Source: Asterochloris sp. CNOR1
Taxonomy: Eukaryota > Chlorophyta > Trebouxiophyceae > Trebouxiales > Trebouxiaceae
Length of the DNA stretch: 64,000 nucleotides
Reading direction: 5' to 3'
NCBI GenBank assembly: GCA_963969365.1
Contig: OZ017759.1
Coordinates: forward strand, 1,054,001-1,118,000
Each line of letters begins with the position of its first letter. Position 1 is the first letter of the stretch. Shown piece by piece: positions 12,840 through 62,900 of this stretch. The translations under genes were made by a program, and so were the position numbers. A model generated the notes under the pieces. The model did not search any database. It was not told the origin of the DNA and saw only the letters and a program-made list of their open reading frames with translations.

Positions 12840-15800
12840 ATGGGCAGCAGGTTCAAAGACACCGTGCCTGCTCAGAGATGGGCAGGCCCCAGTCCGCTTG
12901 CCTGTGTCATTGGACTTTTCTGCCTAGTGGCATTCCCTGCCTGGGCTCAGGACGATCCCCATGGACACCAGGCCGGTGTTTGGCAAGAGACAGCTGCTGC
13001 AGATGGTACACCTCATCACCCAGACTATGGCATGTACAGAACTATGTGAGTCGATATATGCAGTGACGCTGTGCTCCAGGCTGACGCAAGTCTGGGAGCT
13101 ACACCGTCATACCCTTGGAACCTGTGTGGACTGTACTGGCTTCGTGCTGGCATGACTGCATGGCTAGAGGCGTCTCTGTGACTTCATGGTGGCCAGATAC
13201 ATGCCTGGCCCTCAGACCATGCTGTGTAGAATTGCAGGCAGGGGCGGCCCTCCAGTGCCTGAATTCTAGACCTCAATCATGTTTCATCCTTGAATCTGCC
13301 CTGTTGATGCAGTCTCCCAATCACTGCATGCGCCTGCAGGAAGCAGTCTCTGGACAGGGTGCGCAGCATTGTGGAGGCCAACCCCAGCACCATGGATGTG
13401 AGCAGGCTTCCAGTTTGATTTTGTATCGCCTTGCTGTCAATTCAACATAAGTTCCTGGGAGACTGACATCTGCATTCTGCAAGCAGATCACGGACATCCC
13501 CCTGGCAGAGCAGGACTATGAGGCAGTGGTCACGGTGAATGAATTGCTGCTATGCAAAGCCATATTCGCAAAGCAAGGTTGACACAGGAGGTGCTTTTCT
13601 TGGACATCTGGCTCTTGCTGTAGGTGGTCACAGTGGAGCCTGGAGGGCTGTCCCATGATCACAGAGGCAAGATGCGCTTCCTCCTGGTGAGATCCGTAGC
13701 GTCATGGCTCAGTGGTGCAGCAAACCCCCACCTGCCGTGATGTTCACTGCACATTGCATCTGCATAGAGCCTATGCCTCCTGAGCAGAGCAGCAGCGCTG
13801 GGTCGAGCAATCCCCGACGTGCCAAATCCTGGCATGAGGAGTGCATGTGACATATGCTTAAGCACAGCTGGCAGCATCACATGCTGCAGCGGCAGGGGCT
13901 CAGCTGCCCCCAGGCTGCCAGCCACAAGGTGGACATCCCTCTTGCACAAGCACATCCTGGTGCTGGGCTTGAGCTTGTTCGGGCCTCCGTTGGCTGCTGG
14001 CCAAGCAGTGCACATGCTGCTGCAGGAAAGCAGGAGCTTCTTTCGGGCTGGCTCCCAAACGCACCAAATTGCCACTGCAGGACTTTGGCGAGCATGGCAG
14101 AGAGCTGGTGACAGTGGAGACAGCCATCAGGCTGCTGGAGTTGCTGAGCCAGCATGCGCAGGTCACCAGCGGCCCTTCAGTCAGCAGTAAGCGGCGGCTG
14201 CAGACGCAGCGGCAGCAGGAGGTGCTGCTGCCTGCAATGGCCACACATCCCATTGTCTCTGGCAAGGAGCACGCAGGTCCTGCCGATCAAGGCCACCAAG
14301 CCTTGCCCAGCACAGAAGCGCTGTCGCTGCAGGCCGATGCCGAAGCAAACAATGAGCATGTTGCTGAGGCAGAGGCTGAACAGCTGCTGAGCACACTGAG
14401 CAGCTCTGGGCCAGCAGCTGTGCGAAAGCTGCTGGCCCACCCCAGCAGGCCGCACAGCGCTGCAAGCACATTGCAGGCGCTGCTGGAGCAGAGTGTTTTC
14501 AAGGTTTGCTCCTGACGTGCACCCTGCTGTCGCAGTTGGTCTGTTCTGAGCACTGTGCTGGCTTAGCAGTTCAAGCATGCTGCAGGCGCTCCTGCAGCAG
14601 TTGTCTGCTTTGGCAGTTTGAGGGAACGCTATAGTCATGTGTTGGCATGGCTCTGCAAGCATGCTGCAAGCGCCTCCGAGACAGTCCGCCCTCAAGGCAG
14701 GCTATGTGCATGGGCAGTAGTTGGGTGCTGGCATGTCTTTGCAAGTATGCCGCAGGTCTTGCTGATGCAATCTCTGTTCCATGCAGGCTGTCTTTTGTCT
14801 GTTGCATACCTGTATGGAGGGCTGCACATTTCTGTGCTGTCAGATAGTGTCCGTCCTGCTGGCTACACCTGGCTTCGACTCATCCTTATGGAAAATTAGA
14901 GCATGCAGTACACACTGAGCGGCAGTGCGTTCCCTCTGTGCAGTGCCCCAGACTGAGATTCGCCATTCAATCCTGGGCAATAGCTGCAGCAGGGTAGCTG
15001 CAGGGCCTCGCCTGAAAATAGCAGTCACATTCGTGTGCTTCCCCTGGCTGTAGAGCAGCCCAATGGGAATAAGTTTAGAGCCTGTAGGCGTTGCCTGGCA
15101 GGAGACCACGAATTTGTGCTGGCCTGCACCTCAATGGCAGCAGGACAGGGCTGTGACACAGCAACCTCCTGGCTGCAGATGACCCCTTCAAATGGGTCAA
15201 GGGCAGCAGGGGCGCAGGGCAGTTGCAGAAGTGCCCGCCTCTTGGCAGACATGCCTACAACTGTGTGGTGCCCTGTAGCTCCAGTGCAGCAAAACGCCGC
15301 CATGGCAGCAAGACATAAGGCTTTGCATAGTCCGCTGAACTTGCCTAACGCAAGTGCCATCTAGCCTGAGCTGCCCTACAACTTGGTTGGTCCTGGCTGC
15401 AAGATGAGGCCATGACCTTGCCATCCTGTGGCGCAGATAATTCCCATGGAGAACAGGGGCGGCCGCCGCCGCGTGGAGGCTGGGGAGCTGTGTGAGCGCA
15501 AAAACGGGCGCGGGGTGGACCCCAACCGCAACTGGGATGTCCACTGGGGCCACAAGGAGCGGGACTATGACCCTGCAGAGGAGTTCCCTGGGAGGGCGCC
15601 CTTCAGGTGACTGTCCTCCATGGAGCTGTGCATCATCGACGTGGCCACCTTTGGCTCAGTCAGGGCTGCTGTAAGAGCTGGAGGTGAGGGACGACCGTCC
15701 GCTCTAGCCACAATGAGACGGCAGTACTGGGGCCACAAGGAGCAAAACCTATGACCCTCAAACAACTTACAGGGAAAACACACTCCAGGTGTCTTTCTTG

Positions 15801-17778
15801 TCGGCAGCTGCATGCCTCATGTACAGGGTTTTTGTTGCTGGGGGAGGGCTGCTATAAGAGGTGCAGGTGCGGGCGGTCTGCCCCGAGAGGACTTTCCGCT
15901 GGCTCCACAAGCAAGGGGACTATGACTCTGCAGAAAAGTCACCTGGCAAGGCGCCCTCCAAGTAGGTCTCCTTTGTGGGACTGCTGCTGTTGTGGCGGCG
16001 ATCGTCCTGCCTAAGGTCTTGCACCCTGCTTACAAGTCAGGGGGAGCACACCTTTCAGGTAGGTGGACGTGCTGCAACAGTGGCCACTCGTCACGGTAGG
16101 AGTTCCCACTGTATGATTATGGGGCAGCATGTCCCTTGTGCAGGGAACCCACACTGGCATGTCCTTGGAGGCCCGCCTTGGCAGCTACAGCACAGGTCCT
16201 GTAGCATTGGCGGAGAGGCTCCTCCGGCTGTTGAAGCCTTGCATGTGTGCCTCTCAGAGCAGCCGGGCTGCTGTGCATGCCATTCCTGCTGTCACTCTCT
16301 GCTGTGTAGTCAGCCTGGAACACGCCTGGTCCTGCCTCTGGCGCAGATGTTTTGCCTTCATGTCTGGCTGAGGGTTCACTCTGTCAAATCAGAACATGTG
16401 CAGCAGTACAGCAGGCCTCGTACAGCCCACCTGGACTGCCACTCCCTGGTGCAGTAAGCCTGGGAAAGCCCTGATCCTGGAACAGGCACAGACCTTTGAG
16501 CCTCATGTTAGGCTGAACTTTGAATTTCTGCCAGAGTAAAGTATCTTCGCTGTCACTGCATGCTGTGTGCATGTCATCACCATTGCCATCCCCTGCTGTC
16601 TGGTGAGCCTGAGACACCTCTTCTTCAGTCCCCAGCACATACTATCTGCGCCCCACGACTGGCTGCACTTGCATCCTGCCACAACACGCCATGTGCTCAG
16701 GCGCAGCATGCCACATTGAGCCCATCAAGACTGCCATTCCCCTGCTGTGCAGTGAGCCTGAGACAGCCCTGATACTGGCCCTGGCGCAGACCTTTGAGCC
16801 CCATGTGTGGTTGAACGTGCACTCCGGCATGGAGGCTCTCTTTATGCCATATGACCACCGGGCTGACATCCCCCCAGGGGAGCAGGCGCTGGCCACACTG
16901 CACATCTTGGAGGATCTCAACAAGTGAGCGGGGACTGGAGTAGCACTGTGCGGTGCACAGCAACAGCTGAGTGCCAGTGAATGGCCTCAACTAGTTGAGG
17001 GTGTCCTGTTATCTTGAAGAGTTGTATGCTCTTCCTCCTGAAGGCATTGAATGTGACAGGTGATTTGGTTCTTGAGCAGAAGGACAGATCATGTATGTGC
17101 CACCAAAAACACGCTGAACCCAGCTGTACTGACCCTACCCACCTGCCGCTTGTATGCAGGTCGCACTGTGGTGGTCGGTGCGCGGTGGGCTCCGGCGGTC
17201 GCTCTGTGGGCTATTTAGCTCATGGCACTGCCACAGATTATATGTACGAGGTCCTGGGAGTACCCCTTTCGTTCACTTGGGAGATTTATGGCGACCTGAA
17301 GGCAGACTACACCGACTGCTTCAGGATGTTCAACCCCCTAAATGCTGCAGTTCTGGAGGCAGTGGTTCAGAACTGGGCCTCAGCTGTGCTGCGCTTGGTG
17401 GAGCTGATGCCCCTCCACCCCCACATGGCCACTTTTCTGAGAGAAACGGGGCACAACGTGTCGTCCCTTAGAAGGCATCGGCGGGGGGCCACAGAGGCAG
17501 CCAAGGGCATGGCCCAGGCTCAGCAACAACTGAAAGAGCAAGAGAGCAGCATGCAGGCTGCCGTGGCAGGGCTAGGCTTTCGCACAAGGAAGCAAAAGCT
17601 GCAGATGAGCCTGCAGGGTAAGGTGGCTTCAGGGCAGAAAAGGCAGCCCAGTACCCTGATGTATGGCCTTTCACTTGGGCTGCTCGTCTTCATTGCTGTT
17701 GCCCTTAGATTGATGTATGATCGGCCAGTGTGCGCGCAATTGAGACAGGCCATGCGCAAACGCCAAGATCAGAAGTGA
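12840..17778 (+). CDS. M14 zinc metallocarboxypeptidase with signal peptide and C-terminal membrane anchor
   Basis: This enzyme removes C-terminal residues from peptides. Eight exons join in frame: 12840-13045, 13340-13397, 13487-13534, 13624-13686, 14081-14503, 15437-15606, 16753-16923 and 17160-17778, giving about 585 residues. The N-terminus has a hydrophobic signal (CVIGLFCLVAFPAWA). Zinc ligands are the HxxE of FGEHGRELVT and the His of LNVHSG. NGRGVDPNRNWD holds the substrate-binding Asn-Arg pair. The catalytic Glu sits in SFTWEIYGD. Between the first ligands and the NRNW exon lies a polar Ala/Glu-rich insert (exon 5). The C-terminus ends in a coiled segment and one hydrophobic helix (YGLSLGLLVFIAVALRL) with a short basic tail. 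It resembles the plant At5g42320-type group rather than the SOL1/CPD group; that subgroup is inferred. It is probably a secretory-pathway or surface enzyme with a lumenal catalytic domain. Confidence 0.9.
14569..14790 (+). repeat. Three decayed copies of the M14 exon-5 end
   Basis: The exon end at 14460-14503 (around ttgcaggcgctgctggagca) recurs as degraded versions at about 14573-14610 (ctgcaggcgctcctgcagca), 14655-14695 and 14743-14785. Spacing is near 80-110 bp. All lie in the intron after the exon. Confidence 0.65.
15725..16062 (+). repeat. Two to three decayed copies of the M14 exon-6 end plus its donor site
   Basis: The real exon end 15541-15608 (ggggccacaaggagcgggac ... ccttcag|gt) recurs at 15725-15790 (ggggccacaaggagcaaaac ... 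ctccag|gt) and 15899-15965 (ctccacaagcaaggggacta). A shorter version lies at about 16020-16061. The DNA between copies also aligns (gggctgctgtaagagctgga against gggctgctataagaggtgca), so units of about 175-180 bp were duplicated whole. Confidence 0.85.
16285..16752 (+). repeat. Three decayed tandem copies of the M14 exon-7 start plus its acceptor
   Basis: The exon start at 16753 (tgagcctgagacagccctga, preceded by tgctgtgcag) is mirrored upstream with starts at 16310, 16455 and 16604. The steps are 145, 149 and 149 bp. Each copy keeps the polypyrimidine and acceptor context and about 75 bp of exon-like sequence. Only the last copy keeps the open frame containing the zinc-ligand His. Confidence 0.9.
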
Positions 17779-17852
17779 GCCCCATCTGCTACAAATTTGA
17801 AACCAATCATGCCGCACTGAGTGTCACAGCCCCACGGATTGCGTCTGAAGGC

Positions 17853-17857
17853 TTTAC
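17853..17857 (-). other. TGTAA poly(A)-type signal of PEN-2
   Basis: The minus-strand TGTAA lies about 85 nt past the PEN-2 stop, inside the 163 bp convergent spacer shared with the M14 gene. Confidence 0.5.
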
Positions 17858-17941
17858 AAGCCCTTGCACAAACACCTTCTGAGTCCCAAGACTTTCTGGT
17901 GTTCTCCTGACAGTCACAGCCCACTTCTCCTCTTCAGAGCA

Positions 17942-18891: not shown

Positions 18892-21719
18892 ATGATCAGT
18901 CCAGTCTGTATGCAGGTAATAGTATTGGTGGCCTCCCTTGTGTGTATTGCAGCCATCAGGCCAGACAAGCAGCACAGCAGGAGAACTATAGACAAGCCCC
19001 TGGTATACGGACACAGAGTGGTGCAAGCCTACCCTCACGATCCAGCAGCCTTCACTCAGGGACTGGAGTTTGAGCACAGGTGCATTGAGGGCGGGCAGTC
19101 CTGCAAAGACATTTTGTGGGAGTCGACAGGTGGGCTCAAACATACAGGGTGAAAGTCTGCAATTTGAGTGGGAACACAGACACAGGCAACGACGCACGGT
19201 GAGCCAAGGCTCAGCGCAGCACAGCAGGCCTGGCTGCTTTGGGGTGTGACACAGGGCGTGACTCAACCAGAAGCAGGCTTCTGCTTGACAGGACTGCCCC
19301 TGCATCTGCACATCAATTCTCAGCAGGCAGGCTGCAGAAGGCTGACCCTGAAGCAGAGCTGCCCTTGCGCCTGCTGCCCCTGCAGACCTCAACAACCACT
19401 GCAGTGTGCTACAGCAATCTGCTGCCCTGCAGATCTCAATGGCCTGGTTAGCGAACAGCCTTTTCACCCTGCACCGACCTTAACATGCTTGCCCTGCAGC
19501 CCCAATGAGCTGCAGTATGTCGAAGTTGTGATTGTCACACAAGCCTGGCTCCACCCTGGTCACCTCTTGTCTGGTGGCCCTGCAGGCCTGGTACAACAGT
19601 TTGGATCAGCGTCGGGCTGCATTGCGGGGGTCGTCTCCAAGTGCAGAGGAACGTGCAATGCTGGGGAGCTGGGCTCCAACAACGACCAACTGCTGCCTGC
19701 TGCATCTGCAGACATGCGTATGTTATATGCTTCATGCTCCAGCGGAGTGCGGTGTGCTGTCTCTGCAGGTCTCAATGGCCAGTCCAGTGTGCGGGAGGTG
19801 GAATTACAGACTGGCAAAGTGCTGCGCAAGAAAATGCTGAGCAAGCTGGACTTTGGGGAGGGCCTTGTCAAGTTCAAAAACAGGTGGCCATGCAGGCGCT
19901 GCTGCACCTGGCTTGTTGCTCTGTGTTGCATCTGAAGAGCCGCCGCTTGGCTCTGCACACCTGGTTATGAACTGGCTGGGATCAGCTGTTGTAGGCGTTG
20001 TGGGGTTGCCTGGATGCCTTGAACCAACAGGCAGCAGTGTATGCCTGCTGGGCACAGCAGTGCCATGTGGCTGGTGAGTGACTCTCGTTCTTGGTGACCC
20101 AGTCCCAACACGGAGGTGGCAACAGGTGTGCTGGAGATGTATTCTTGGGCCGGCCAAGGTGCTGTATGTGGCTCACCTGCTGTGCAGGCTGTACCAGCTG
20201 ACCTGGCAGACCCCAAAGGGCTATAGCTACAACGTCGACAATTTCGACGATACACGCTCCTTTGTCACGCCCCTCCAAGACGGGTGGGGTGCAGCCACGG
20301 ACGGCAAGTCCCTCATACTGTCAGATGGCAGCTCCAGGCTGACATGGGTCGAGCCAACAAGCTTTGCCAGGGAGCGCACCGTTGAGGTGAAGGATGGCAA
20401 GCGAGTTGTCCGGAACCTCAATGAGGTGAGAGGTGCAGCGTTGCTGCTCTCAGGCCATGACTCTGGACAGCAGGCACATCGCCTCTTGGGGTGGAGAGGT
20501 GGCTGCCCGCACAAGCACTACCCCTGTGTGGCTACCTGGCGCAGCAGGGTGCACGGCGGCAGGGGTGCTGTTCGAATGAGGTGAGGGTGGCTTCCAGCGC
20601 CGCCATCGTCTGCCCTATGGCTGCTGCACCTCTCTCAGAGCAGGCTGGCTGCTGCAGCTGCTTCACCGTCAGCCTGGCACAGCATAGCATTGCACATGCG
20701 TTGCAACCCTTTGCTCTCATGCTGCTGCTGAGCCCGCAGGCTGCTGCACAGCCTGCTGCCCTGCCTGCAGGTCTCACGCTGCTGATTTGCCTGAGGATGG
20801 GCATGCGCTTTGCCAGTGCTGCAGCACAGTCCCCAATTCTTGACACATCTGCTGCCTGCCTGCAGCTGGAGTGGGTGGAAGGCGAGATCTGGGCCAATGT
20901 GTGGCTGACTGAGTGCATAGCACGGATAGACCCCGCCACAGGCCGAGTCAAGTGAGGCCAGCTGGCTCCACGCATGCCTGCATGCTGTCCCTGCAGCCGC
21001 TTCAAACTGTCCAGGTCCTGCAGCCGCTTCAAACTGTCCAGGTCCTGCAGCCGCTTCAAACTGTCCAGGTCCTGCAGCCGCTTCAAGTTGTCCAGGTCTT
21101 GCAGTTCATGCCTTCCATCTGTCCTTCAGCTCCTGCCTGCTTGCCATCTATACTGCCCCTGCTGCTGAACACCTTACTGTCATCTGTGGAAGTGCTTGAG
21201 CTGCTTGCATGCGCAGGTCCTGGGTGGTCTTGGATGGGATGCGCAGCAAGCTTCAGAGAGAGGCTGGGGTGCAGACAACACCCATGGATGTCCTCAATGG
21301 TGAGTCTGGTAGCTGCCACTCAACTATCTGCGCTGCCAGGCTAAAGGCGCTCTGCCCAGTGGGACTGCCACATGACTTGTGATGCTGTACCCTTTTTTGC
21401 TTCCCCCTACATCTGCCCCAAGTGCCCAAACTGTTTGCTGCAGAATTGATGGGGACTGCTGCCCTGAGCAGCATGCCGAGCACAGACATGCAAACTATGC
21501 CAGTTGGCCTGCCCATGTCAAGCAGGCCCAGTTTGCCAAGCTCTGTGCTGATGCTGTTGTCACCTGCATGTAGGGATCGCCTATGACAAGCAGCGTAAAC
21601 GTATCTTCATTACCGGCAAGAACTGGTCAAAGCTGTATGAGATTGAGGTCATGCTTCAGCAGGACAAATTTGGCCAGAAACACAATCTTGATGATACTCG
21701 AATGCTCTGTATCAAGTAA
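18892..21719 (+). CDS. QC: Plant-type glutaminyl-peptide cyclotransferase (glutaminyl cyclase)
   Basis: The enzyme converts N-terminal Gln of peptides to pyroglutamate in the secretory pathway. Six exons (18892-19129, 19769-19883, 20188-20425, 20866-20951, 21217-21299, 21574-21719) join in frame to about 301 residues, the usual length. The ATG at 18892 puts a hydrophobic anchor ([14 protein letters not shown]) at the N-terminus. Family motifs follow in order: [68 protein letters not shown] and [18 protein letters not shown]. These are blades of the five-bladed beta-propeller seen in papaya-type QCs, unrelated to the animal zinc QCs. The annotated stop (taa) follows CIK; a further 3' exon cannot be ruled out because the stop overlaps a gtaag string. 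Confidence 0.93.
19378..19530 (+). repeat. Decayed copies of the QC exon-2 start plus acceptor
   Basis: The acceptor and exon start at 19762-19800 (ctctgcaggtctcaatggcc) recur at 19379 (ccctgcagacctcaacaacc), 19425 (ccctgcagatctcaatggcc) and 19494 (ccctgcagccccaatgagct). All lie in the intron before the real exon. Confidence 0.75.
20992..21105 (+). repeat. 27-bp minisatellite, four units
   Basis: The unit starts ctgcagccgcttcaaactgt and ends ccaggtc. It occurs three times almost perfectly and a fourth time with changes, then a fragment (ccaggtcttgcag). It lies in the QC intron between 20951 and 21217. Being a multiple of three it stays open on both strands, but nothing else suggests coding. 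Confidence 0.9.
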
Positions 21720-21894
21720 GCCTTCCAGGCCACACTGGCCTTCAGGAAAGTCTGGCCCACTTCCCCCTCAGTATCACAACATGGTCACAACGGATGTCAT
21801 ACAGTCTTATCAGGCGCAGTTGGAAAAGAGCTGCATTGCTGTTGGAAGCTGCCAACACTATGAGGGGGCTGCATGCTGGCATGCTGATGCTGCC

Positions 21895-24360
21895 TTAGGG
21901 GCCGAGGCGATCCATGAGGTGCTGCAGATCCTGGGTCGAAGCCATGCCAACAGCTGCCTTCCTGCGGATGACCTCCTTCTCAGCAGTGACTTCAGCTGCA
22001 AGGCGCAGAGAGAACGAATTTGCTGCTGTATGGAGCTGCAGCAATGGCATGGGCAAGAATGACCCATATCTGCAAGTGCCTGCAGCTGTGCCGCAGAGAC
22101 CACAGGTATGCTGCTTGGCAGGCTTGGGCACAGGCAGTGGCAAGCAAGTTGCAGATGTAACACCACCGTGCTGCACCCTATGTAGCACGTCTCACTGCAT
22201 GGCTTGCGGTGGCAAAATGGGAAAGTGCAGGGGCCCTTGCATGGCACCCTGCACACATGGGCAAGGGCAGCGGCACAGCACCAGCTGCCGTCAGTAGGCT
22301 TGGCAATCTCATGCGCCTGGCAACCTCCAATCGTCTCACCATTAGCTCCAGTGGCGCCTGCCAGGGCCCTGCTCTCATGTTTGCGCCGCAGCTGGGCAGC
22401 CTTGTTCAGCAAGGGCTGCAGCTTGAGGGCTGTGCTGGCAATTGCGGCAGCATCCTGCACCAAGTTCTCCTTGCCGCCAGCCTGCTGGCCAGCCTGCACA
22501 GCCAGCTGCTGCGCGCCACCTGCACGTAAGTATACTGGCAGTAACGCACATGGTGAGCACCTGGAGCATCAGAAGCAGTTGGCAGGCTGCCTGCGGCATA
22601 CCCACCCCCAACCCCTCTTCCCCCCTTCCCTTCCGCAAGTGCAACGCAGTGAAGCTGCGCACCCAGTAACATCTAGCCTGCTGCACATTAGCCAGGTTCG
22701 TGGCTGCCCTTGGGGCTCGACCATCCTGCACGCAGGCTCTGGATCAGACAGGGCTCCTGCCAGTGCCAGGCTAGGCCCAGCACTGCCTCAAAGCCTTGTT
22801 TCCAGTCGTTGCATGACTGTATTGCTACGCACTTGCCTCAAGACCCAGCATTATGGACACGCTTCAGCTAGCAACACCATGGCAGCTGTGAGGGGCCTCA
22901 GCCAGGGCAAGGTTGGCCAGGTGACAGTGCACCAAAGTCAGGCTTGTGCACACAGGCCAGAGATGTGCATCATAGGAGGCCGGCAAGGCACCCCTGGTGA
23001 AGTGCAAGGCTGGCCCCGCCGATGTGTCTCACCAAACATGCGCAGCTCCTTATCCAGAGCTGCTGTCTGCTGATGCAAGTGCCTCGTTGCAGCTTTGGCC
23101 TGCATGTGTGGCAGAAACATGAGCATTGGTGAAGGGCAGATCTGAGACAGCTGTCAGTGGCTGTGGCCAAGCATTGTAACCGGTGGAGCAAGCTGCAGGC
23201 ATTGGCATAGGCAGGAACATATTGCTGCACTACCAGCAGGCAGACATGACTGCAGATTGGCCATGCGCAGGCTGCCGAGCTGTGAGAGCGCTGCATTCTC
23301 AGACGAGGCTGACAGAAGCACAGGCAGCAGCACCAGGCTGCAGGGCACCAATGTGACTGACGCAGGTGCTGTCGTGCAACTGTGCAGAGTGCAAGGGGGC
23401 CTTGTGGCTGTCACAGCCCCATTGGCAGCAGCATGCTTGCATGGGCCCCTTCCTGGCCCTGTGCTTGTGCGTACAGCCCAAGCAGAGCAGCAGCCCATCA
23501 GGCATCAGATGCTGCACATCTGGAGGTTGCCGCAGGAGCTTTGCTGTGGTGTCCAGGGGCAGAAGTGCCCCTGTAGCTGTCACAGCCCCAATGGCTCCAA
23601 ACAGCCAGGACCTGCCTGCATGATGTCCTCCCTGGTCCTGTGCAGCTCGATGTCCAGGGGCGGCTCTGCCTCCTCATCCACCAGGGGCATGCTCACCTGA
23701 GGGGTCTCCTGCATGCGGACACAGACAGTCTCAAATGCTTGACGCCAGCAGTGCCAGCAGTATGCTTGACGCCAGCAGTGCCAGCAGTGACTGCAGCTGT
23801 ACATGCAGCCATGCAGGGGTCAGGGGCTGCTGTTTGTGCCTGACAGACGCTGCTGCCAAGCTCTGGCAGATGCGGGCAGTGGCACCACAGCACAAGCTGC
23901 TGAGCTGCAGCACTCTCCTATGCAGCTGGTGGTGAGATAGGGTCCACATGGCCGTGACTTGTTGCGTCCTGGACATGGGGCGGGGCATACCTGCGCCACG
24001 TCCAGCCCAGCGGGTGCTGCCAGGCAAGTGTGCACCGCAAAGCGCTCCCAGTTGCCAAGTTGCCTGTGCAGGCTCGCCTGCAGCCTGTTGTACAGCTGGG
24101 CACTGCCCTGCAGGTGGTACACAGCGCTGAGGAAAGGGTGCACCTTGCCACCTGCTGGCAGCCGCTGCTGCTGCTGGCAACATCTCTGCAGACAGAAATA
24201 TCACCTGAAGCACCTCCTCCTCCTGAGCCTCCGTCAGGGGCAAAGACGTGAGCACGCAGCTGCATGAGGCACAGCTTTCTGTGAGGTTGAGTTGTAAGGC
24301 ATACCCAGCCACCTGAGAAGCACTCACGATTCGAAGGCGTCTGTTCCGTCTGCTGCATAC
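21895..24360 (-). CDS. Coiled-coil protein, possible MIS12-like kinetochore subunit
   Basis: Five consecutive minus-strand exons join in frame: about 24145-23991, 23708-23616, 23099-23033, 22519-22340 and 21995-21895 (stop). They read VHPFLSAVYHLQGSAQLYN, LGNWERFAVHTCLAAPAGL, PLVDEEAEPPLDIELHRTRE, HLHQQTAALDKELRMFG, STALKLQPLLNKAAQLRR, and end DLQHLMDRLGP. The layout is an N-terminal helical part, a WE.F.V....PAGL stretch, an acidic-proline linker, an ELHRTREDI start of coil, then heptad-like helices. This matches plant MIS12, which recruits the NDC80 complex at centromeres, in order and spacing. The match was made by eye and is weak in identity. The N-terminal exon is unresolved (a candidate ATG lies at 24360). 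The intron from 23615 appears to use a GC donor (CAG|gcaggt). Any other short coiled-coil protein remains possible. Confidence 0.5.
23398..23650. repeat. Tandem duplication in an intron of the MIS12-like gene
   Basis: The stretch ttgtggctgtcacagcccca at about 23401 recurs as tgtagctgtcacagccccaa at 23572, followed in both by tgcatg ... cctggccctgtg or cctggtcctgtg. The period is about 170 bp, and the second copy runs into the real exon edge at 23616. Confidence 0.65.
23736..23789 (+). repeat. Two 27-bp direct repeats
   Basis: atgcttgacgccagcagtgc and the following cagcagt are repeated perfectly in tandem within an intron of the MIS12-like gene. Confidence 0.9.
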
Positions 24361-24693: not shown

Positions 24694-27600
24694 ATGGCTG
24701 TGGCCAGCCGTGCCAGGCGGACAACTCCTGGCGCAAGAGGGCAGCAGCAGCAACAGCGCTGCCCTGATGAGAACCAGCTGCAAGGGGCATACAGCATCTC
24801 GGACTGTGCAGAGGGCTGGAGCCTCATCAGCAGCACAGCATGCTCAGACGGGGCACCCCCTGACCTTGTGGAGCAGTTGAAGAAAAAGGCAGAGTTTACA
24901 GAGCTCCCACAGCAGGTGCATTCTTTCCTGATGGGAAGGTCGATGAGCTGCGTACCCTGCGGCAGTCTACCTTGTGCGGGGCATAACGATCTGATACTGT
25001 CAGAAGGCTGCGCTGCGTGCACAGTTCCGGGCTGGCAGTCGCTTGGAGCAACTAAACTGCAAATCATTGCCTCCTGCAGTGGCCTCCCGTGGTGGAGTTG
25101 CGCAGGGAGAGCTCAGCCCCGCTGCCAGCCTGCGTTCAGCAGGCCTTTCGGCAGCATGAGAAGAGCGCCAAGGTCATGCTATTGCCTGCCATCAAGTGCG
25201 CCTGCGCCGCAATCGATCTGCAGCTCTTCCTGTGGAGATATGACAGGTTAGGGTTTCTTCTGCTGGGCTACATGGCATCGGCAGGCAGCCTCGCTGGTCA
25301 AGCCTCTGCAGCCTCCAACAGCCTCTATTACTGCCTTGCTAACCCAAGACCTCTCACGGGCATGCTCTGCTGCTGAAGTGCAGCACCCCAAGAGGACTGG
25401 CGGGCGCGCTGACTGCAGCTTGCATTACCTGACTGCAGCTTGAGTTTCATGAGGTCGGCGCCTGGCAGTGGTGCACCTGCAGGCATAATGCTCCAAAGAA
25501 TGAGTCTGTGCAGCACTGTGGCTTGCTTGGCCAGAGCTCTACCTGTAATGATGCAAGACAGGGGAGCCGCCTCTGAGGGGCAGCAAGCACACAAGCTGCA
25601 GCGCTGTTGCTTGTATGACAAAGCTCAGCATTCCGACTCTCGGTGTGCAGTGTTGCAGGGCAGGGGAGCAGCTCATCTGGCTGCAAAATGAGTTGCAACT
25701 TCTCAGCATGTTGATATCAGCAAGAGCCCCGTGTGCATTGGTTTGTTGCTCCTGCTCATTGAGGCAGCAATAAAAATTTGCAAGCACCGTCCATGACAAG
25801 CTGAGATACAGCTCTGTACACGCTGATGCAGAGCTGGGGAGCCGCTCGTGTGGAGTAATAGCACAGACACAATCCTCCATGTTGAGGTGGTGGACAAGCC
25901 GCAGCAGCTGCAGTCCACTTGCAAGCATGCACTGGTGGTGTGCACTGCCAAAGAGGTGAGCCAACCCTCAAGACACAACCCAATCTTCTTTTGCCAGCTG
26001 CAAGCTCCTGTGGGTATGTCAGACCAGCCGAGCACCATGCATCGCCGAGGCCTGCTTTCAAATCGGTGGGTTTTGCATCACCAGGATGACCATGGCAGAG
26101 CCAAGCACTTGTGGTGTGTTGCGGCCCAAGCAACATGCAGAAGCCAAAGGCAGGGCACAACCTGGGAAGCATAAGGCAGTCCGCTGGTGTCCAGAGGACA
26201 GGCTGTCTTCTTGGCCTGCCGCTCCCTGCAGGCGCTGCCTGTCTCTGTTAAGCTGCGGGAACACCATCCTTGATGGTGTGCTCTGGGGCTCCTTGGAAGC
26301 GCTGACTGAGCACCAAAGCCTGCGCTGCTACCACTGTCTGCCAAATGCTGCTACCCTCTGCAGATCATCGTGCTGCTGGTACATGAGGGCGACCAGCAGC
26401 CTGCCCTGACAGAGCCTAAGGGCCTGCGCTGCTACCACAGCTTGGAGGTGCTCAACTGCGGGACCACGTTGGGTAGCCGTGTATTTTTGGGAGGCGCCAA
26501 TGGCAATCTATATGAAGTTGTGACTCAGGTCAAGTCTCTTGAGCTGGTGAGTTCAATCCGGTGAAGGCCAGCCGCAACGTTATAGAGTCTGCAGCAGAGC
26601 ATGGGAGAGAGATGAGGGGCTGCCTGTCCACCAGCCAGATACTGTCCAGATGTCAGAAGCCTGGATGGGGACATGAGTTGTGGGTGTGCTTTCAGCAAAG
26701 CGGCTGAGCATCTGGCTCCCCTCCGTCACGCAGTCAGGTGCCATTCAGCTGTCGAATGCCTGTCTGCATGGGGAGGAGGGATGCAATGGCCTGGCTGGCA
26801 TTCACCATAGTGGGGACAGCGCTGTCCTGTTTGCCAACCCAAGCCGCTGTGCAGCTTTCACTGCCTGCCATGGCCGGCTTCAGCAGACAGTGGATTCTAG
26901 GTTTGCCCTGTCATTCAGCCCAGGTTGAGTGTCCAGCCATTGAGGACTTGTGTGACGTCGAAGGATGTTGCAGACTGAAGATTCGGAAATGCGTACCCTA
27001 AGCTTGGGCAGTCTGGCAATGCTGCCGACTGGGGGAGGTGTGACTGCAGTGCGCTTGTTTTGGCTGAGTGGTGAATGTGGCAACCTGAAGACCTGCAGGC
27101 CAATGCCTCCAGATGTGCTGGAAAGGCATTGTGTGCCCACAGTGGGCTGGAACGCTGCAGCTAAAGGTGGCCGGCCCTGACCACTGCAGTTCTTGTCATT
27201 GCAGGTGTGTTGGACAGGCATCCGGCACCAACACTCTGCCAGAGAGCTCTGGGAGCAAGCAGTCAGCACCCTGCCGGGCTTCTGTTCCAGGTCTAGCCTC
27301 ATCAAGCAGCTGGTGACAGACCCAGAGCGCCGGCTGCTCTATGCACTTCACGAGAACAATCTTGTTCAGGTCAGCAGTATTGTGCCTGCTGCAATGTGAT
27401 GGGTTTCTTCTGCAGAAAGAGCATCTCACCAACATTGTGGTGGTGGGGGTTGACATTATGCAACAACCAGCAGCTCATGACAGACCCAGAGCGCTGTGCA
27501 CTGTGACAACTCAGTAGCAAGCCAGCAGCATGCTGCCTGTTGCCAGCAACTTGACATGCAGCCATGCACCAGGCAGGGGCCTGCTGCAAGCTAGGAATGC

Positions 27601-30600: not shown

Positions 30601-33600
30601 GCTGCCTCCATTCTGCAGAAGCTGGAGCATGCATCACGTTCTCTGGTCAACAGCGCTGCGGGGATGATCTGTAAAATTGAGTCTCGTCTCAAATCGCGCC
30701 CACGGGGTCAACCAGAGGTCCAATGGGGCGACAGCCAGGGGGATGAGCAACCTGGCAAGCGCCAGAGGGTTGCATCAGAGATCGATGAGAAGGAGGTCGA
30801 CAGGTTAGACATCACTGCTGCTTGAAGGCTGTGCACTGCTGCGTATGTGTGGCTCGCTGTGCCTGGCATGCACCAGAGTGTGGGATCAGAGGCAGCTTAC
30901 AGGTCAGGGGTGTCTTTTCGCCTCTTAGTGCTGCAAGCGCTGGAGACTGGCACCCAAGGCAGCTGAGAAGAGGCTGTTAAGTCCTCTGTGATGTAGATGT
31001 AGCGTTCTGATGAGTAACATCTTCACAAGTATACAAATGCATTGTGACACTGGCCTTGTTCATGCCAGCTCCCCGTCTTTGTGCCAGTCCGCTGAGTCAG
31101 GAGCCTGGCCGCAGATAGCCACAATGTATGCCGGCTGGTCAACAGTCCTTGGCGCTGACTGAAGCTTGCATATTACTCATGTCTGATGTGCTACAGTTTG
31201 TTGAGGTGCAGGCTGCAGCACGGTGCGCAGCAGATTGCATTGCCAATATAAACACCACCAAAGACATCTCATGTTGTGCTGCAGCTTGAGATGGGGCAGG
31301 CCAGCTGACAGAGGGCCTTGGCACATCATCAGAAGGTCACACAGAGCTCATGGTGTGCTGCAGCTTACGGAAGGTGCAGGCTGCGGCCCAGCGGATAGCA
31401 GATGGCCTGGCCATCCTGCAGATGCTGGCAGACGATCAAGGGTCAGCCATTGCTGGCAGGCTCAGCGAGCAGCAGAGAGATGACCTTACCAAAGTGACAC
31501 TCCAGTCCTGGGCTGCTGGGCAGGATGGCGACAGGCTGGCACGCAAGCTGCTATGGAAGCTTCTGCGCTCAGGTGCGTTCTTTCCGCATATCACCCGTGG
31601 GGAGGTGCTGCATTGAGATGTCATCTGCAGCCAGAAATAGCAGAGGTGTGCAAGCCCTTCCAAAAGTGCTACCCGTTACAGTGGCAGCTTCCCTATTGCA
31701 CTCAGCCTGCCACCCTGTGTTGCAGCCAGCGATGGCAGGGAGCTGTCAGCTACCTTCACAGAACGCTGCCCAAGCTTCTGGAGGCCGGTAGACAGGACGC
31801 AGGCTGCTGCAACCTTTGAGCTGGAGGCAGCTCAGAGAGCAAGAGCGCCTGAGGGGATAAGGCGGCACTGCACTGCTGCCCTCACAAAGTTTAATGAGGT
31901 CAGTCCATGCTATTTGGCGGGTGCAATTCCTGCATTGCAATGCTGCCCAGGGCTGCCAGATGTCCAAAGCTGCCAGCTGCCCCAGCAGAGACCATCTGCT
32001 CCTCTGCTGCTTCCTGGCAGCCGCAGCTAGTTGTGGCAGCTGCACCAGCTTGAGTTGTGGCTGCTTTGTGAAGACGCACAACCTGTTTCTTGGAGGCCAT
32101 TTGCAATTACACACAGCCAGTCCGCCAGGTGCCTGTTGTGCAGCAAGGACATCGACGGGCGCATCACAGGCTGGGCAGCATGCGGGTACAAGCCCCCTGC
32201 CCTCCGTGTTGGGGCTGAGATGTGGGCCACCTACGCAGCTGCATGCCTGCCCACTCCCATACTCCTTGCCTTGGACACATCAGTGACCGAAAAGCCCTTT
32301 GGTGCAGGTGGCTGTCCTGGTGGACTTGCACGAACTGGTGCCGCAGCTGGCTGAGCTGCAGGCCTGGGGTGGCATCGTCCAGCTGGCGTGCAGCAAGGCT
32401 GCAGCCCTGGCTCCTGCACAGAGGCCACAGCAGCCTCCTACAGACCAGCAACGTCAGGTCAGTGCAGGGGTCAGCTGCTCTTTGGGAGGGCCGGCTTCTG
32501 ATGTCTTCCTTGCACATGCTGCTTGTGTCACAGAGCTGGCAGGGCTGTATGTGCGGCCCGTTCCACCTGTGCAGTCCCAGCCCACATGCTACCATTCAGA
32601 CAACAGCACACTGCCAGTGCCTGATGTTGAGGTGCTCATATTCTATTTATGGTGCCAGTTGCTGATTGTCACGCAGGACTGCTACCAGCCAGTGACAGAC
32701 CTGTTCAGGGCGCTGCACAACCCCCATGCTCAGGTGGCAGGTGCCTGTAGACCGCTTCAGCAGCAGCATGCACGCGAGATGGCTTTGAGCAACCTGCTTC
32801 AGGTGTGCGCCTGCTGAATATGGTGTCCTTCAGAGCAGGATCGGACACCCCCCCTGACTGTGACATCATGCACAGCCTGTGTACACTACACCATCATCAG
32901 GCCTGGCTGGGTGGTCCTCAGTGTCAGCAGAGCACAGCCAGAGGGCCGCATGGCACGCACCTGCTGCAAACGTGTACGGCATGCTGCAGTGAGTCAGCTC
33001 AGCATTGCACATCAGCAGCAGTCTCACCCTCTGTCTGTAGCAGCTGTGCACGGCACATACGCACGATGTTTGTGGCCTGCAGGTGGTGCCATGCAGCCCT
33101 CTACACAGGGCTGTCAGAGCGGCTGTGGCAGGCCCAAAGGCTGACTTGCACCTGCTTCCCTGGCCTGCCGGCAGTGGCACAGAGCTGTCAAGGCTGTTTT
33201 CTGACCGTGGCTGCTGTGCTCCCAGGTGTCTAACGCCAAGCACTGATTTTGAGGCCTGCAGGTGGTGGCACAGAGCTGCCACGACAGCCACTTGCGGCAG
33301 GCCGTCTTTGACACACTCACGGAGTTGAGAGCCTTTGGTGTGCTCGTCAAGGTGGCTTTGCAGTCCTTGTCGGGACCCAGGCACATCAGAGCCCACCTTC
33401 AAAGAGCGGGAGGCATTGGTGATGATGGGGAGATGCCCCAGGGGCAGCACCTGGATTATGAGCAGGCGAGCAGCCGCAACATTGCTGCCTGTAGCTGGAC
33501 GTTTTGCATGCACCACAGCGCAGCACACCTGATGCACAGGTCTGGCACTGATGAAGGTATGCTGTGGGTGGCAGGTGATGTATGATGCGGTGTTTGTCTT

Positions 33601-42673: not shown

Positions 42674-45600
42674 ATGCCAGTAATGACAGCTGGCATGGTG
42701 AAGCGTTGGTTTCTCATCCTTGCTCTGCTGATTGGGCAAGCAGCAGCACAGCTAGAGGCATTGGCACCAGCAAGCCTTGTGGAGGCACCACCTGCTGTGG
42801 GGGAGGCGGAGCCACCAGCTGCAAGCGCAGCGCCAGCACCCAGCGACCCCACCGATGCTGCGCTCATGAACCAACTGTCCCAGCAGCTGCGCAATCCTGC
42901 CTGGCTGGCCAACCCTGGCCAGCCCTGCGGAGGCAGCTGGCAGGGCGTCAGCTGCAGCGAGGCTGGCAGGGTCACCAGCATCTCACTGGCAGCCTACAGC
43001 CAGCTGGGAGCCATCCCAGAATACCTCTCAGGGCTCATGGGACTGCTCAACCTGACACTCAGCAGCATGCAGATGAATGGCACCCTGCCAACCTCCTGGG
43101 GGACTGCCTTTCGCCAGCTGCAGTGGCTGGACCTCAGCGGCAACAGTGAGCATTTCCTGTGTCGCACTGATGTTGGGACCTGTTGCATTAGTGTCTGCAG
43201 CCAGCTTTGCTGGCTAGTGGCTGCCCTTATTGGCAATAGCAAGCTTCAGTTTGGTCAGAGGCTGGTGCTCAGTGTCTGCAGTGTGCCTACAGCCAGACTT
43301 CGACCAGCTGCAGTGGACTGCAGCGGCAATGGGAAAGCTGCCTGTGTTGCACAGATGTGGATGAGACCTGGTGGAGTGTGTCCTGCAGTAATGCCTACAG
43401 CCAGGCTCTGCCAGCTGCAGAGGCTCGCCCCCAGCAGCAGCAGTGGATGCTACCTGTGGTGGAAGTCCTGTCTGCAGCTTGCCTCTGCAGAGCCAGCAAT
43501 GCAGCTTGCAGCGTGGGGGAGATGCGCAGTATCTGGAAGTTTGAGCTGATGCTTTATCACGCACCAGGATTTGCAGCTCACCTGTGGCCCACTTGCAGAT
43601 GCGCTGATCGTCTAGGTCAGCCAGCCTTCCACATGGCAATGCCCCTGTCAGGGCTTGTCAATCCAAGATCAGCAACCTCGCTGAAGCCATGCAGGTGGAG
43701 GGATTGTCATCCCAAACAAATGTCTTGCTTCTGTTTAACCTAGAGCAGACTGCTATGCAGTTCTGACAGTAGAGGCAAGCCCTTTCACCATCCAGCATCT
43801 CTGACACGAGGAGCCAGACTGGTGTACAGCAGTGCACGGCACTAAATGCATGCAGGTCTGACTGGGACGCTGCCTGCATCCTGGGGCACTGAGGGAGCCT
43901 TCCCTGCGCTGATGCACCTCGACCTGCACAATGCCTTTGTGTCTGGCAGCGGCAGCACCCAGAAGGCTGGGGGCAATGCCCGCAAGATGATCCAGAGCAA
44001 CGCTGTCACCCAGCCCCTGCCTGCAACCTGGGGCATGCCAGGCACGCATTGCTGTTGCGTGATGATGCTGAGCCCTCAGCTGTGATCCATGCCATGTTGT
44101 ACTGCCGTTTGCATTGTTTTGCCTAGCAACAAAATGCTCCTCAAGTGTGCTGGATTGCCATAAAATAAATCTGCGGATCTCCTGCTGCATCTCAGCAATG
44201 TGCCACTGCCTGTGCAGGTGGTGGCCTGCTGAACCTGAGCTATCTGGATCTCTCGCAGTGTAACCTGACAGGCACCCTGCCACCAGGGTGGGGTGCAGGG
44301 TGGCAGCGCCTGCAAACGCTGAAGCTGGGGCTGAACGGCCTGTCTGGCTCGCTGCCCCTTGGCTGGGGCAGGAGCAGTCTGGCCAGCCTGCAGATGCTCA
44401 TGCTGGCCAATAACACCTTCACAGGCGCCATGCCTGACAGCTGGAGCTCCCCAGCCACCTTCACGCACCTGCAGGCGCTGGATCTGTCCCACAACAGCCT
44501 GTCGGGGCAGCTCCCGGCAGCTTGGGCAGCCCCCGGGGCCTTCCCCAACCTCACCTCGCTGTTGCTGTCAGACAACAGCTTACAAGGCAGCCTGCCGACG
44601 GAGTGGGGTCAGGCAGCCGCCCTGCAGAATCTGTCCCTGCTCACGCTGCAGAACAACCAGCTGTCTGGGGGTGTGCCAGCTGCTTGGCAGCTCACAAAGC
44701 AGGTGGGGACAGCCTTCCTGGGAAGAGGTCAGTCCAGCTATCGTCTGCCAGCAATAGTTGCTTGTCTGGCTCAGACCACCCCTGCAGCCGTTCCACAGCA
44801 GGACCGCGTTGACTCCTGCACGTCAGATGCTGTTGCTACCTTGCTAAAGATCTGGACAATTTTGTCAGCCGTGCACTACGTGATGGCTGCAGGCAGTTCA
44901 AAAGGTGCTGCTGCCAGGCAACACAGGCATGTGCGAACCTGTGCGGGCCAGGCTGCAGGGCTTCCTGGCTGCCACGTCACAGGCAGCCAGCACCAGCACT
45001 ACCAGCAACCTTGTGCAGATTGGATGCCTGGAGGCTGGCTGCAGCTGGCAGAGCATGACATCCGCGCTGAATGCCAGCGTGCCTGGGGAGTCTGAGGGAT
45101 GCGTCATCAGCATGAATGCTACTGGGCAGTTGGCTGCAGGGCCAGGTTGCACCCTGCCAGCTGGTGAGTCCCAGCAAATGCTGAAAAGCGTAGCAGCATG
45201 CTGCCAGGCTGACCGATGGGGCAAGGAGCTTCCTTGCTCAACTGATCAGCTGCTTGCCTGCCCTGTGCAGAGAGTTACCTGGAGCCCAACGGCACAACAA
45301 ATGAGGGCCTGTCAGCACAGTATGTGGTCTCTAATCAGACGCAGCTGACATTGAAGGGCCTGACCTTCAGCAATCTGGTGTCCATCGGTCTTCAGCCCCT
45401 GACGGAGAGCTCTAGCGGCCTCAACAGCTCTGTGGGGTTCAATGCTCCCGGCAGCAACATGTCGAGTCCCCTCATTGATTATGAGCCAGCAGGCACAGAG
45501 GCTCCCGTTGCTGTCAATCAGACAGCCCCCCTCATCATATTCAACAGCACTGTACACCTGGACAACTGCAGCTTTGCTGGGAACACCGGCTTTGACTTTG

Positions 45601-59911: not shown

Positions 59912-62900
59912 AAGAAATGGCAGGAGCAGGAGGACCTCAAGCCCCCCAAGGAGCGCAGGTCAGCACATCGGCTGCTTAAAACTGGCTGCCTACCAGCATG
60001 TAGGGCTGGAGTATCTGAGCAATTGCGAGGCTTTGCTTGACACACGGCCAACAAGTACATAACACAGGGAGGGCTGTGGCTGCTCCACTTTGTGGCGTCC
60101 AGGCACCTTGCCGTAACGGCCATCAGCCTGGCATGGAGCTTCCTGCACAGCCATTGGTGTGCTCTGAGCTGCCGTGTGAGTCACCCTAATCTATCATGGC
60201 CGGTGCACTGGTCTAGTGGGGGTCTCCTGCTGCGTCACCTGAGCAAATGCTCTGACAAAGCATTTGCAGCAAAATCTGCTGTGTGGACATCTTCCAGTGG
60301 GCAGACTGCTGTGACAGCGCGACCTCTTAGCAGGTCGTGCATTGGTGTCGCCCCAGCGATGTGGCAGAGTCTCCACACTGGCTGGGCAGGGGAACTGCAT
60401 GCTGTGATGCAGTTCCTGCTTCACTGGCAGGACAGCCTCCACGGGCGGGAGGCAGAGCCAATCGTCCGCATCTTACTGTCAGCGTAGTCCACCGAGTGAG
60501 CGAGGGCCTCTTGCTGCAACTGCAGGAAGCTGCCTGAGCCTCCTGGGTGCAGGCAGAGCTGCCCAGCTGCAGATATCTGTGCTGCCTGATAGACTGTGTT
60601 CTCTGCTGCATTACAGGAAGATGCCAGAGCCTCCCAAGGAGATGGCAGAGCTGCCTATTGGGGGGGCCAAGATGTCCACCGCGCAGCTGGACGCCTACAA
60701 CCTGAAGGCGTTTAACACTTTTGAGACCGAGTCCCTCAACACTTGCCCCTACTGCAACAGGACCTTCAAGTGAGGCAGGCAGCAAAGTGCCCCATGCATC
60801 CCCCCGTAACACCTCTCTGTTCAGCAACATTCCCTAAGTCTTACCCCCACTCTGATTGTGGTCCACTGAGCTCTGTCACCCTGGAATGCCACTCTCCAGC
60901 ACAGCACCCATCTGCCTCACCAAACAACACAGGCATGGGGAGCCCAGGTGGTCGCCCTGTTCGCCTACGCACAGATTGTGTTGGTGTGTTGTCGCCCTGC
61001 TTGACCAGGTGCCCGTACCTCTGCAGTGATGTGGCCTGGAGCAAGCACCAGAAGATGTGCACTGCAGCGAAGCCCTTCAGGCCGGCTGGGACAGGCCTGG
61101 GCAAGGAGAGCCTGAGCACCAAGTTGGAGCCGGGCCTGATCGGGGGAACCCAGCACGCGCGAATGGTGCTGCCCGAGGCGGGAGAGCGGCTGCGGGACCG
61201 TGTGGGCCCTGCTGCCGCCACCTATGAGGTGAGCTGGCCAGACAGCTCTTTCAACCTGCCATCACGTGCTTTTTTACAGGGCTCATGCTGGCAAATTGTA
61301 TGTGGCCCAATCTGCGTGTGCCCTGCCCTTGCCACACGCCAGGTGGGCTGGCCTCTTCAGGCTATGCCTATGATCCCCTCAGCTGCACATAATGCCTATG
61401 CGGGCAACATCTGTGTCCCTGCTGCTGCTATTGTGAGGTGAGCCTGCCCGCGCTGTGAGGGAGCCACTGCCACATCACAGGTCAGCTGGCCCAACCCAAA
61501 GCCCGCACAGGTTGGGCACCTGTGCACTACACTGGCCTCTCCAGCCTCATTGGCCTGTGCCTGTAACACCCTTGAGGTGAAGGCAGGGCTGGGCCATTTG
61601 TGCAGAGGATGTGGGGCCATATGGCCCTCGCTACCGCCACCAATGAGGCTGGCCTGCGCCTCCACTGTCTGTCTAGTATGGTGTGGCAGTGGGCAAGCAT
61701 TCGGGACACAGCTGATGCTTGAGACCGCAGACAGGCAGCGTGGGAAAAAATGAGCGGTGCCTGGGCGGTCACCCGTGCAGTGTGTCCCTGATTGGCTTGA
61801 TGGCATGCCTCCATCAAGCAGGCCCAGTGTGGCATAGCTGCACCTGCAGATGTTGCCGCCTTCATGCAGCTGTCCTTCCAGGTCGCCTTACTTGTGGTGA
61901 TGGCTCTGCTGCCTACTGATAAGTGAGCTTTCCCACACATGCTTTGTGCCAGCAGATTGAGGCTTCAGCAGTCACTGGCGCCTCCCGCAAGGTGCTGGCC
62001 GCTGCAGCTGACCCAGCTGCTGGGGCCCCTCCTCTGCTGGGCCGGACAGCCAAGCCCAAGCCTGCAGCGGCAGCACCAGTGGCAAGTGTTGGCGCTCTGG
62101 GTGCCACAGGCAACCCTGCCGCGCTGAGCAAGGCGGCCGGGCCAGCAGCCGCGCCGCGAGCAAGTGCTGCTGCACAGGGTCCACCACTGCCAGCTGATGG
62201 TGAGTACTGCTGCCTTGGGCAACCACCAGTAACATCAAAAGTTGTCAGCCTTTCAGGAGGGCTTAGCATGGTTTTACAATGGGTGGAGCAGGCTCTTCGA
62301 CCTCCTGGCGTCGTCAGTGGTGCAACCCGGGCTGTCTGGCGCCTACCACAGGCAGATATCCTCACCGTCATGTTCTTGACAAAGGGCAGCAGAGGTGCTC
62401 AGCTGTGCAGCTGCACTGGCAGACGTCAGCATGCAGCTGTGCAGTTCTGGACATCCGTGACGCACAGCAGGCAGGCTCAGCGTGTACTGGCATTGACAGG
62501 CAGCTGGATGCAGCGTCAAATGCCATTGAGGAATGTGCCATGCTCTACCTCTGGTTGCTCACAGCCTGTCACGTGCTTAATGTGCAGTGACAGCGCTTGT
62601 GAAGGAAGTTTTTGAGGCACCTGTTGGAGCCGCAGGAGTGAGCGCAGTTGCAAAGTACCTGCAGGTGGGCATGTACTGGCTGTCTGCTGCAGCATGCCAG
62701 AGTCCCTTGCTGTCAAGGCGCATGAAGAACGGTATCATTGATGAAGTATGCAGTGCAGGAGCAGCATGTCACAGCTGTCGGAGATCTGCAGTACTTGCAG
62801 GTGAGTGGCTTAGCTGTCAGTGCGGTTCTGGTCTGGTGTAGCCCAACATTTCCGTGTTGGCTGTAGCTGGACTGGCTGACAAATGCCCTGGCTCCTGCTG

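Follow-up and report, generated by a model that had tools for sequence, protein, structure and literature searches.

In a stretch of 64,000 nucleotides from the green alga Asterochloris sp. CNOR1 (contig OZ017759.1, positions 1,054,001 to 1,118,000; hereafter the window), the introns of several genes contain degraded copies of the edge of a neighbouring exon, in many cases together with its donor or acceptor site. The question raised by this locus is whether introns were lengthened here by duplications special to exon-intron junctions, as the original prediction held, or by duplications occurring irrespective of gene structure. We favour the second reading, with a probability of about 0.75: small, direct, local duplications arise frequently at approximately random positions, introns grow longer wherever such events are tolerated, and the copies are the worn remains of these events.

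The assembly comprises 56.4 Mb in 21 contigs, and the sequence examined represents ∼0.6% of the genome. The main data set (314 kb, three contigs) was composed of the window, 200 kb of contig 1 and 50 kb of contig 7; a fourth contig, contig 17, later contributed 30 kb, which was decoded with the existing gene-finder model unchanged. The gene finder was self-trained on the sequence, without RNA, and predicted 497 introns with strong splice signals (donor GTGAGC, acceptor TGCAG) in the 314 kb, of which introns make up 53.8%, exons 28.7% and the remainder 17.5%. Pfam searches, run with nine of the 15 gene models of the window, confirmed all nine genes, with domains PP4R3 (PSY2), M14 peptidase, glutamine cyclotransferase (QC), E2 subunit, nucleoporin N and C, LRR, C2HC finger, FAM210 and EF-hands. 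A search for PP4R3 in 14 control genomes gave no match, and a search of viral contigs for the PDH E2 of a relative found none.

The similarity of exon edges to their own introns was examined by comparing the terminal 60 bases of the exon, extended by 6 bases of intron, with the adjoining intron, with 100 foreign intron stretches of equal length as the null. At p ≤ 0.01, 49 of 479 donor-side and 37 of 479 acceptor-side edges in the 314 kb matched their own intron, against 4.8 expected for each. Intron-to-flanking-exon similarity thus exceeds that of foreign-intron pairs, as the original prediction had anticipated. Reverse-complemented edges gave only 4/479 donor and 3/479 acceptor matches, exon middles 2/99, and the neighbouring intron of the same gene 8/472. 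The effect was present in each region (donor and acceptor, respectively: window, 16/92 and 12/92; contig 1, 24/303 and 16/303; contig 7, 9/84 and 9/84) and was found again in contig 17 (9/41 and 8/41; reverse complement, 0/41 and 1/41). It persisted when exon bases alone were used, without intron bases (20/456 donor and 17/457 acceptor edges at p ≤ 0.005; 2.3 expected for each), and when the control pool was left edge-untrimmed (44/479 and 39/479). Altogether, 80 of 479 introns carry a significant copy of one or both flanking exon edges, compared to ∼10 by chance, and these introns are longer than the others (median 446.5 bp versus 270 bp).

The same sequences were then described as direct-repeat pairs, defined as ungapped self-matches with a score of at least 18 and a spacing of 40–500 bp. 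The 314 kb contain 178 such pairs: 44 junction-intron, 38 exon-intron, 54 intron-intron, 13 intergenic, 18 exon-exon and 11 others. Forty-seven lie in the window, of which 28 join an exonic or junction copy to an intron copy, the rest being intron-only (13), intergenic (2), exon-exon (2) or between segments of the M14 gene called exons by the gene finder (2). In the 30 kb of contig 17, 26 direct pairs were found where 0.69 were expected. Window self-matches of score 18 or more are ∼100-fold denser at spacings of 50–200 bp than beyond 1000 bp, and the contig 1 and contig 7 stretches display a like drop in density with spacing. Direct matches outnumber inverted ones by 49 to 0 in the window (the 49 and the 47 pairs reflect different groupings of matches) and by 33 to 2 in contig 7, the two regions on which inverted matches were counted. 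Shuffles preserving local composition, five per region, gave 0–1 matches, and none in any shuffle of the window. The fall-off with spacing, together with the lack of inverted and shuffled matches in the window, therefore excludes chance as the source of the repeats.

These controls also bear on the possibility that gene models, low-complexity sequence or local composition produced the pattern artificially. The self-trained gene finder did call at least two decayed M14 copies exons, and coding repeats such as those of the LRR gene yield exon-exon pairs. Nevertheless, the reverse-complement, inverted, shuffled and neighbouring-intron controls show little or no signal, and the nine window genes are Pfam-confirmed, which makes an artefact very improbable.

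All seven genes in which copies had been predicted (PSY2, M14, QC, NUP155, PDH E2, the LRR gene and the ZC2HC1-like gene) contain at least one pair. The copies identified in the window genes are as follows (window coordinates; steps in bp).

3845–4026, plus strand, PSY2/PP4R3 (PF04802): end of exon 3760–3879 with its donor (3845–3930) and decayed intron copy 3941–4026; step 96, identity 0.66, score 28.
5064–5189, plus strand, PSY2: decayed intron copy 5064–5099 of the start of exon 5149–5387 (5154–5189); step 90, identity 0.83.
6853–6957, plus strand, PSY2: intron-only duplication without a junction; step 57, identity 0.90.
14456–14789, plus strand, M14: exon end and donor 14503/14504, decayed copies at ∼14565, 14638 and 14718; steps 109, 84 and 86, scores 20, 22 and 22.
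15540–15983, plus strand, M14: exon end and donor 15607/15608, decayed copies from ∼15726 and 15895; steps 183 and 172.
16299–16829, plus strand, M14: three decayed copies of acceptor and exon start (∼16310, 16455, 16604) before the real exon at 16753; steps ∼145, 149 and 149.
19372–19792, plus strand, QC (glutamine cyclotransferase, PF05096): decayed intron copy 19372–19409 of the start of exon 19769–19883; step 383, identity 0.76, score 20.
25651–25853, plus strand, NUP155-like: acceptor-type copy 25651–25680 of the start of exon 25832–25955; step 173.
26299–26438, plus strand, NUP155-like: intron copy 26299–26334 of a stretch ∼40 bp inside exon 26364–26546; step 104, identity 0.81.
30751–30891, plus strand, NUP155-like: intron copy 30862–30891 of a stretch near the end of exon 30619–30803; step 111, identity 0.83.
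31204–31413, plus strand, NUP155-like: acceptor-type copy, exon 31364–31596; step 168.
33162–33281, plus strand, NUP155-like: acceptor-type copy, exon 33262–33465; step 91, identity 0.86.
34479–34644, plus strand, NUP155-like: end of exon 34414–34518 with its donor, and copy; step 92.
35776–35934, plus strand, NUP155-like: acceptor and start of exon 35865–36119, and copy; step 95.
36087–36296, plus strand, NUP155-like: donor-type copy, exon 35865–36119; step 171, identity 0.74.
37936–38153, minus strand, PDH E2: donor-type copy 37936–37965, exon 38130–38295; step 188, identity 0.83.
38760–38872, minus strand, PDH E2: donor-type copy 38760–38795, exon 38856–38956; step 77, identity 0.81.
39390–39715, minus strand, PDH E2, intron 39444–40033: acceptor and start of exon 39296–39443, copies at 39506, 39593 and 39669.
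39861–40095, minus strand, PDH E2, intron 39444–40033: end of exon 40034–40302 and donor, copies 39861–39938 and 39927–40012; steps 157 and 81.
40225–40423, minus strand, PDH E2: acceptor-side edge of exon 40034–40302 (40225–40291), copy 40357–40423; step 132.
41421–41602, minus strand, PDH E2: donor-side edge of exon 41565–41728, intron copies; steps 59 and 130.
43113–43458, plus strand, LRR gene: exon end and donor 43113–43161, copy 43410–43458; step 297.
61185–61648, plus strand, ZC2HC-type gene (PF13913): end of exon 61027–61228, copy 61604–61648; step 419.

The clearest example is the M14 intron 15608–16752, with two decayed copies on its donor side and three on its acceptor side. Self-blastn aligns 15540–15608 with 15895–15963 (E 2.5e-8) and 16409–16518 with 16704–16816 (E 4.2e-18), and splicing that skips the copies gives a protein with a single continuous M14 match in Pfam. 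The upstream M14 donor at 14503/14504 was read by eye, the gene finder having placed the exon end at 14419. In PDH E2, intron 39444–40033 holds copies from the edges of both flanking exons.

The catalogue extends and corrects the first description in several respects. The pattern had been placed between 14460 and 61670, where it does occur, but it is also found earlier, in PSY2 (3845–4026 and 5064–5189), and in all four sampled stretches of the genome. Steps of 57 to 180 bp had been given, whereas the actual spacings run from 40 to more than 400 bp. Many copies do derive from the terminal edge of an exon, as proposed, but some pairs match the exon interior (26403–26438, 30751–30780).

Tandem repeats of other kinds were noted in the same sequence. 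A 27-bp unit is present in 4.3 copies (96% match) at 20990–21104, just 3′ of the QC model; this model (18910–20955) matches Glu_cyclase_2 only up to profile position 201 of 249, and it probably lacks the final exon or exons. A perfect 2 × 27-bp tandem duplication lies at 23735–23788, in an intron of a predicted minus-strand gene. In contig 1 (605552–605617), a perfect 31-bp tandem duplication is nested in an older, decayed exon-edge copy; duplication therefore recurs at one place.

The state of the spare copies was assessed in the exonic part of 82 ungapped pairs. Mismatch at codon positions 1, 2 and 3 was 0.204, 0.190 and 0.262, respectively (p = 8e-5), with 415 transitions and 415 transversions. 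Changed codons comprised 137 synonymous and 334 nonsynonymous cases, where random changes would give 88 and 383, and included 9 stops, compared to 13.6 for random changes. Judged from these codons, the pattern fits one copy being constrained by selection and the other largely free. In the 60-bp exon-only set the corresponding mismatches were 0.209, 0.211 and 0.234. Gapped 120-bp queries gave a flat profile (0.281, 0.271 and 0.280; transition/transversion 0.63), but this analysis was judged to be padded by chance alignment and was set aside in favour of the ungapped pairs. Among 86 gapped exon-to-intron alignments, of which ∼10 are expected to be false, 54 have a frame-shifting indel or an in-frame stop in the copy. 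The proposal that only one copy per array keeps the frame is borne out by these 54, but the other 32 show neither defect over their short length.

Such figures are relevant to the idea that the spare copies are functional, serving under selection as alternative exon ends, decoy splice sites or mutually exclusive exons. Many copies include a splice site, and both nonsynonymous changes and stops are fewer than random; constraint on the true exon alone, however, predicts the same deficit. The frame and coding constraint that alternative exons need was not found, given the 54 broken alignments and a mismatch of ∼0.2 at codon positions 1 and 2, little below that at position 3. Splice-site retention in exon-anchored copies was not clearly above that of the rest (only 13 donor and 8 acceptor cases). 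A high retention of the TGCAG acceptor (101 of 110 positions) was discounted, the pairs concerned having been selected for extending past the junction. We consider a function of this kind quite unlikely.

Recognised copies cover 4.8% of intron bases, and the spans of the pairs 10.1%. At least 20 bp lie inside a copy in 94 of the 497 introns, a few of which are largely made of copies. To describe the introns across these genes as built from copies was therefore too strong, even though the coverage figures are lower bounds, since older copies may have decayed past recognition.

There is likewise no sign that introns were created by these duplications. According to the Rogers/Hellsten model, tandem duplication of an exon segment bearing AGGT gives rise to an intron, and the copies would be the scar of its birth. 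Duplications involving exons do exist here, but in-register similarity of donor and acceptor one intron length apart, scored for 360 of the 497 introns, averaged 5.97 against 5.89 in the control and never reached 16, a result that holds for recognisable events, very old births being decayed beyond detection. The steps listed above do not track intron length either, and intron birth is an extremely improbable source of the copies. A comparison among the 497 introns of the 314 kb for families common to several genes gave only 6 cross-gene matches, of 24–41 bp.

The remaining alternative concerns where duplications start. Some feature of the junction or of transcription, such as R-loops or nicks at exon edges, might initiate them; splice junctions would then be preferred sites (∼1.8-fold over the lowest neutral expectation, as a point estimate), introns would grow mainly from their ends, and duplicated exon edges would be a leading source of intron DNA. 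When pairs were relocated at random, 18.8 junction-intron pairs were expected and none of 1000 shifts reached the 44 observed; exon-intron pairs were close to expectation (38 versus 34.2) and intergenic pairs in deficit (13 versus 24.2). Random relocation ignores selection and unequal decay. A neutral simulation was also used, in which duplications fell uniformly, were rejected inside an exon, across two junctions or across gene ends, and were otherwise accepted, the exon copy decaying slowly. Its output was expressed as the ratio of junction-intron plus exon-intron pairs (J) to intron-only pairs (I). The observed J/I is (44 + 38)/54 = 1.52 (95% CI 1.08–2.14), and the simulated ratio 1.20–1.29, with 0.84–1.41 over other settings. 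Thus, the junction share is roughly as predicted by random duplication with selection and slower decay of the exon copy, and most of the excess can be explained without targeting. Since one of its two copies is frozen by the exon, a junction-spanning pair is recognisable for longer, and this is the main reason why such pairs stand out. The simulated range leaves room for a modest junction bias, of ∼1.8-fold over the lowest neutral setting.

Other observations speak against targeting. Intron-only pairs are not drawn to junctions (48 pairs, median distance 72 bp versus 76.5 bp for random positions, p = 0.61). Intergenic DNA and the interior of introns likewise contain pairs and arrays: tandem arrays with a period of at least 9 have about the same density in intergenic DNA, exons and introns (29.1, 24.4 and 27.2 per 100 kb, respectively). 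This comparison concerns mostly short periods, since periods of at least 40 are found in only 5 of the 88 arrays; 71 of the 88 have fewer than 2.5 copies. Periods divisible by 3 were found for 17 of 22 arrays in exons and 19 of 46 in introns. Duplication consequently does not appear to be special to exon-intron junctions: local duplication with decay of the spare copy, as originally proposed for intron growth, was upheld, but its confinement to junctions was not, given the 54 intron-only and 13 intergenic pairs. Preferential initiation at junctions, with introns growing from their ends, is in our opinion doubtful.

The reading that we prefer, random local duplication filtered by selection, may be set out as follows. 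The genome would undergo frequent direct duplications of tens to a few hundred bp at approximately random sites, probably head-to-tail and caused by break repair or replication slippage. Those within exons would mostly be purged by selection unless they preserve the frame, whereas those between genes or wholly within introns would be tolerated, both copies decaying. A duplication straddling one junction would be nearly neutral as well, the protein remaining unchanged as long as splicing still uses the first donor or the last acceptor, which is the outermost site. The spare edge and its splice site would become intron and decay, while the true edge is held by selection, and a pair with one frozen copy would be recognisable longer than an intron-only pair.

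Several results weigh against this reading. Besides the excess of junction-intron pairs under random relocation, the simulated J/I approaches the observed value only if nearly all junction-spanning duplications are tolerated and the lengths come either from the full set of pairs or from junction pairs; with the lengths of intron-only pairs it is 0.84–0.94, below the observed interval, as junction targeting would have it. The ratio of intergenic to intron-only pairs, 13:54 or 0.24, is lower than the 0.32–0.54 modelled. Young pairs, of identity 0.9 or more, make up 0.12 of junction and 0.17 of intron pairs, compared to 0.25–0.37 under a constant rate; among the 13 intergenic pairs the fraction is 0.31, with no shortfall. 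Duplication may once have been more active, or the decay model may be off. Tandem continuity of the whole unit could not be demonstrated in 73 of 91 testable pairs, and ungapped similarity beyond the junction drops to background within ∼15–30 bp, so some pairs may be spaced rather than strictly tandem duplications. On the other hand, similarity continues across the gap of 20–130 bp between matched parts in 18 of the 91 pairs, where 3.8 were expected, and a head-to-tail arrangement was read by eye in at least five of seven stretches inspected. An apparent spacer between the copies of young pairs was dismissed, for in the cases read it proved to be either a further copy or a part of the unit that had diverged.

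How introns lengthen is usually difficult to follow, since their sequence decays and leaves nothing to compare it with. In the present case the exon edge, being constrained, preserves a template from which the rate, size and age of the lengthening duplications can be read in a single genome. The copies also carry a warning for annotation: decayed exon edges with splice motifs were mistaken for exons in M14 (15867–15961 and 16455–16535), and copies of this type are likely to be a source of annotation errors in the genome.

In the open literature, judged by the titles and abstract openings of the matches listed (subscription papers being mostly outside), we found no description of introns pervaded by decayed copies of exon edges, nor of such copies at this density serving as a record of intron growth. 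What is already known is that small tandem and repair-mediated local duplications occur, some of them including splice sites (PMC2671141, PMC8355091). The Tetrahymena LRR genes (PMC6564038), which contain arrays of whole 90-bp exons, were set aside.

Introner elements of Micromonas (PMC3488318) resemble the present case in that intron sequence is derived from repeats, but no intron family common to different genes was found among the 497 introns here. Direct repeats of 4–30 bp at intron borders, which pair both ends of an intron (Rogers and Bendich 2025, PMC11782384), are likewise close to splice sites; the copies described here are longer and lie in the intron adjoining their own exon. Introns gained when an AGGT-bearing exon segment is duplicated in tandem (Rogers; Hellsten 2011, via PMC4974935; Drosophila cases in PMC2891723) likewise result from a small tandem duplication that leaves the protein unchanged, but the in-register signature of such a gain does not exceed the control in the 360 introns scored here. 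In the potato RdRp gene, an intron was gained by a duplication crossing the intron-exon boundary (PMC4974935). As in our junction pairs, the tandem duplication spans the end of an intron and the start of an exon, but potato gained a new intron, while here an existing intron appears only to have been lengthened.

Other parallels are found among local duplications. In vertebrates, repair-mediated duplications capture nearby DNA (Pace et al. 2009, PMC2671141), and the closely linked duplications described there, of 50 to 619 bp, have donors that include exons and splice sites. With a repeat-exploiting pipeline, that study counted 824 cases in human DNA, among them 4 whose donor was a partial exon/intron; our 82 exon- or junction-to-intron pairs in 314 kb were obtained by another method, and the counts are not comparable. 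At least one of its cases is in opposite orientation, an arrangement not seen in the window. In our decayed copies the breakpoints, where microhomology, deletion or filler would mark such repair, are blurred. Short local tandem duplications form one of the main classes of small insertion (Messer and Arndt 2007, via PMC8355091), and a break-repair mechanism has been put forward for them (PMC8355091). The Asterochloris duplications share with these their direct orientation, short spacing, mostly two copies and occurrence irrespective of gene structure, and break-repair fill-in is a plausible cause. They differ in that the copies are mostly decayed, lie 40–400 bp apart and are recognised chiefly through the constrained edges of exons.

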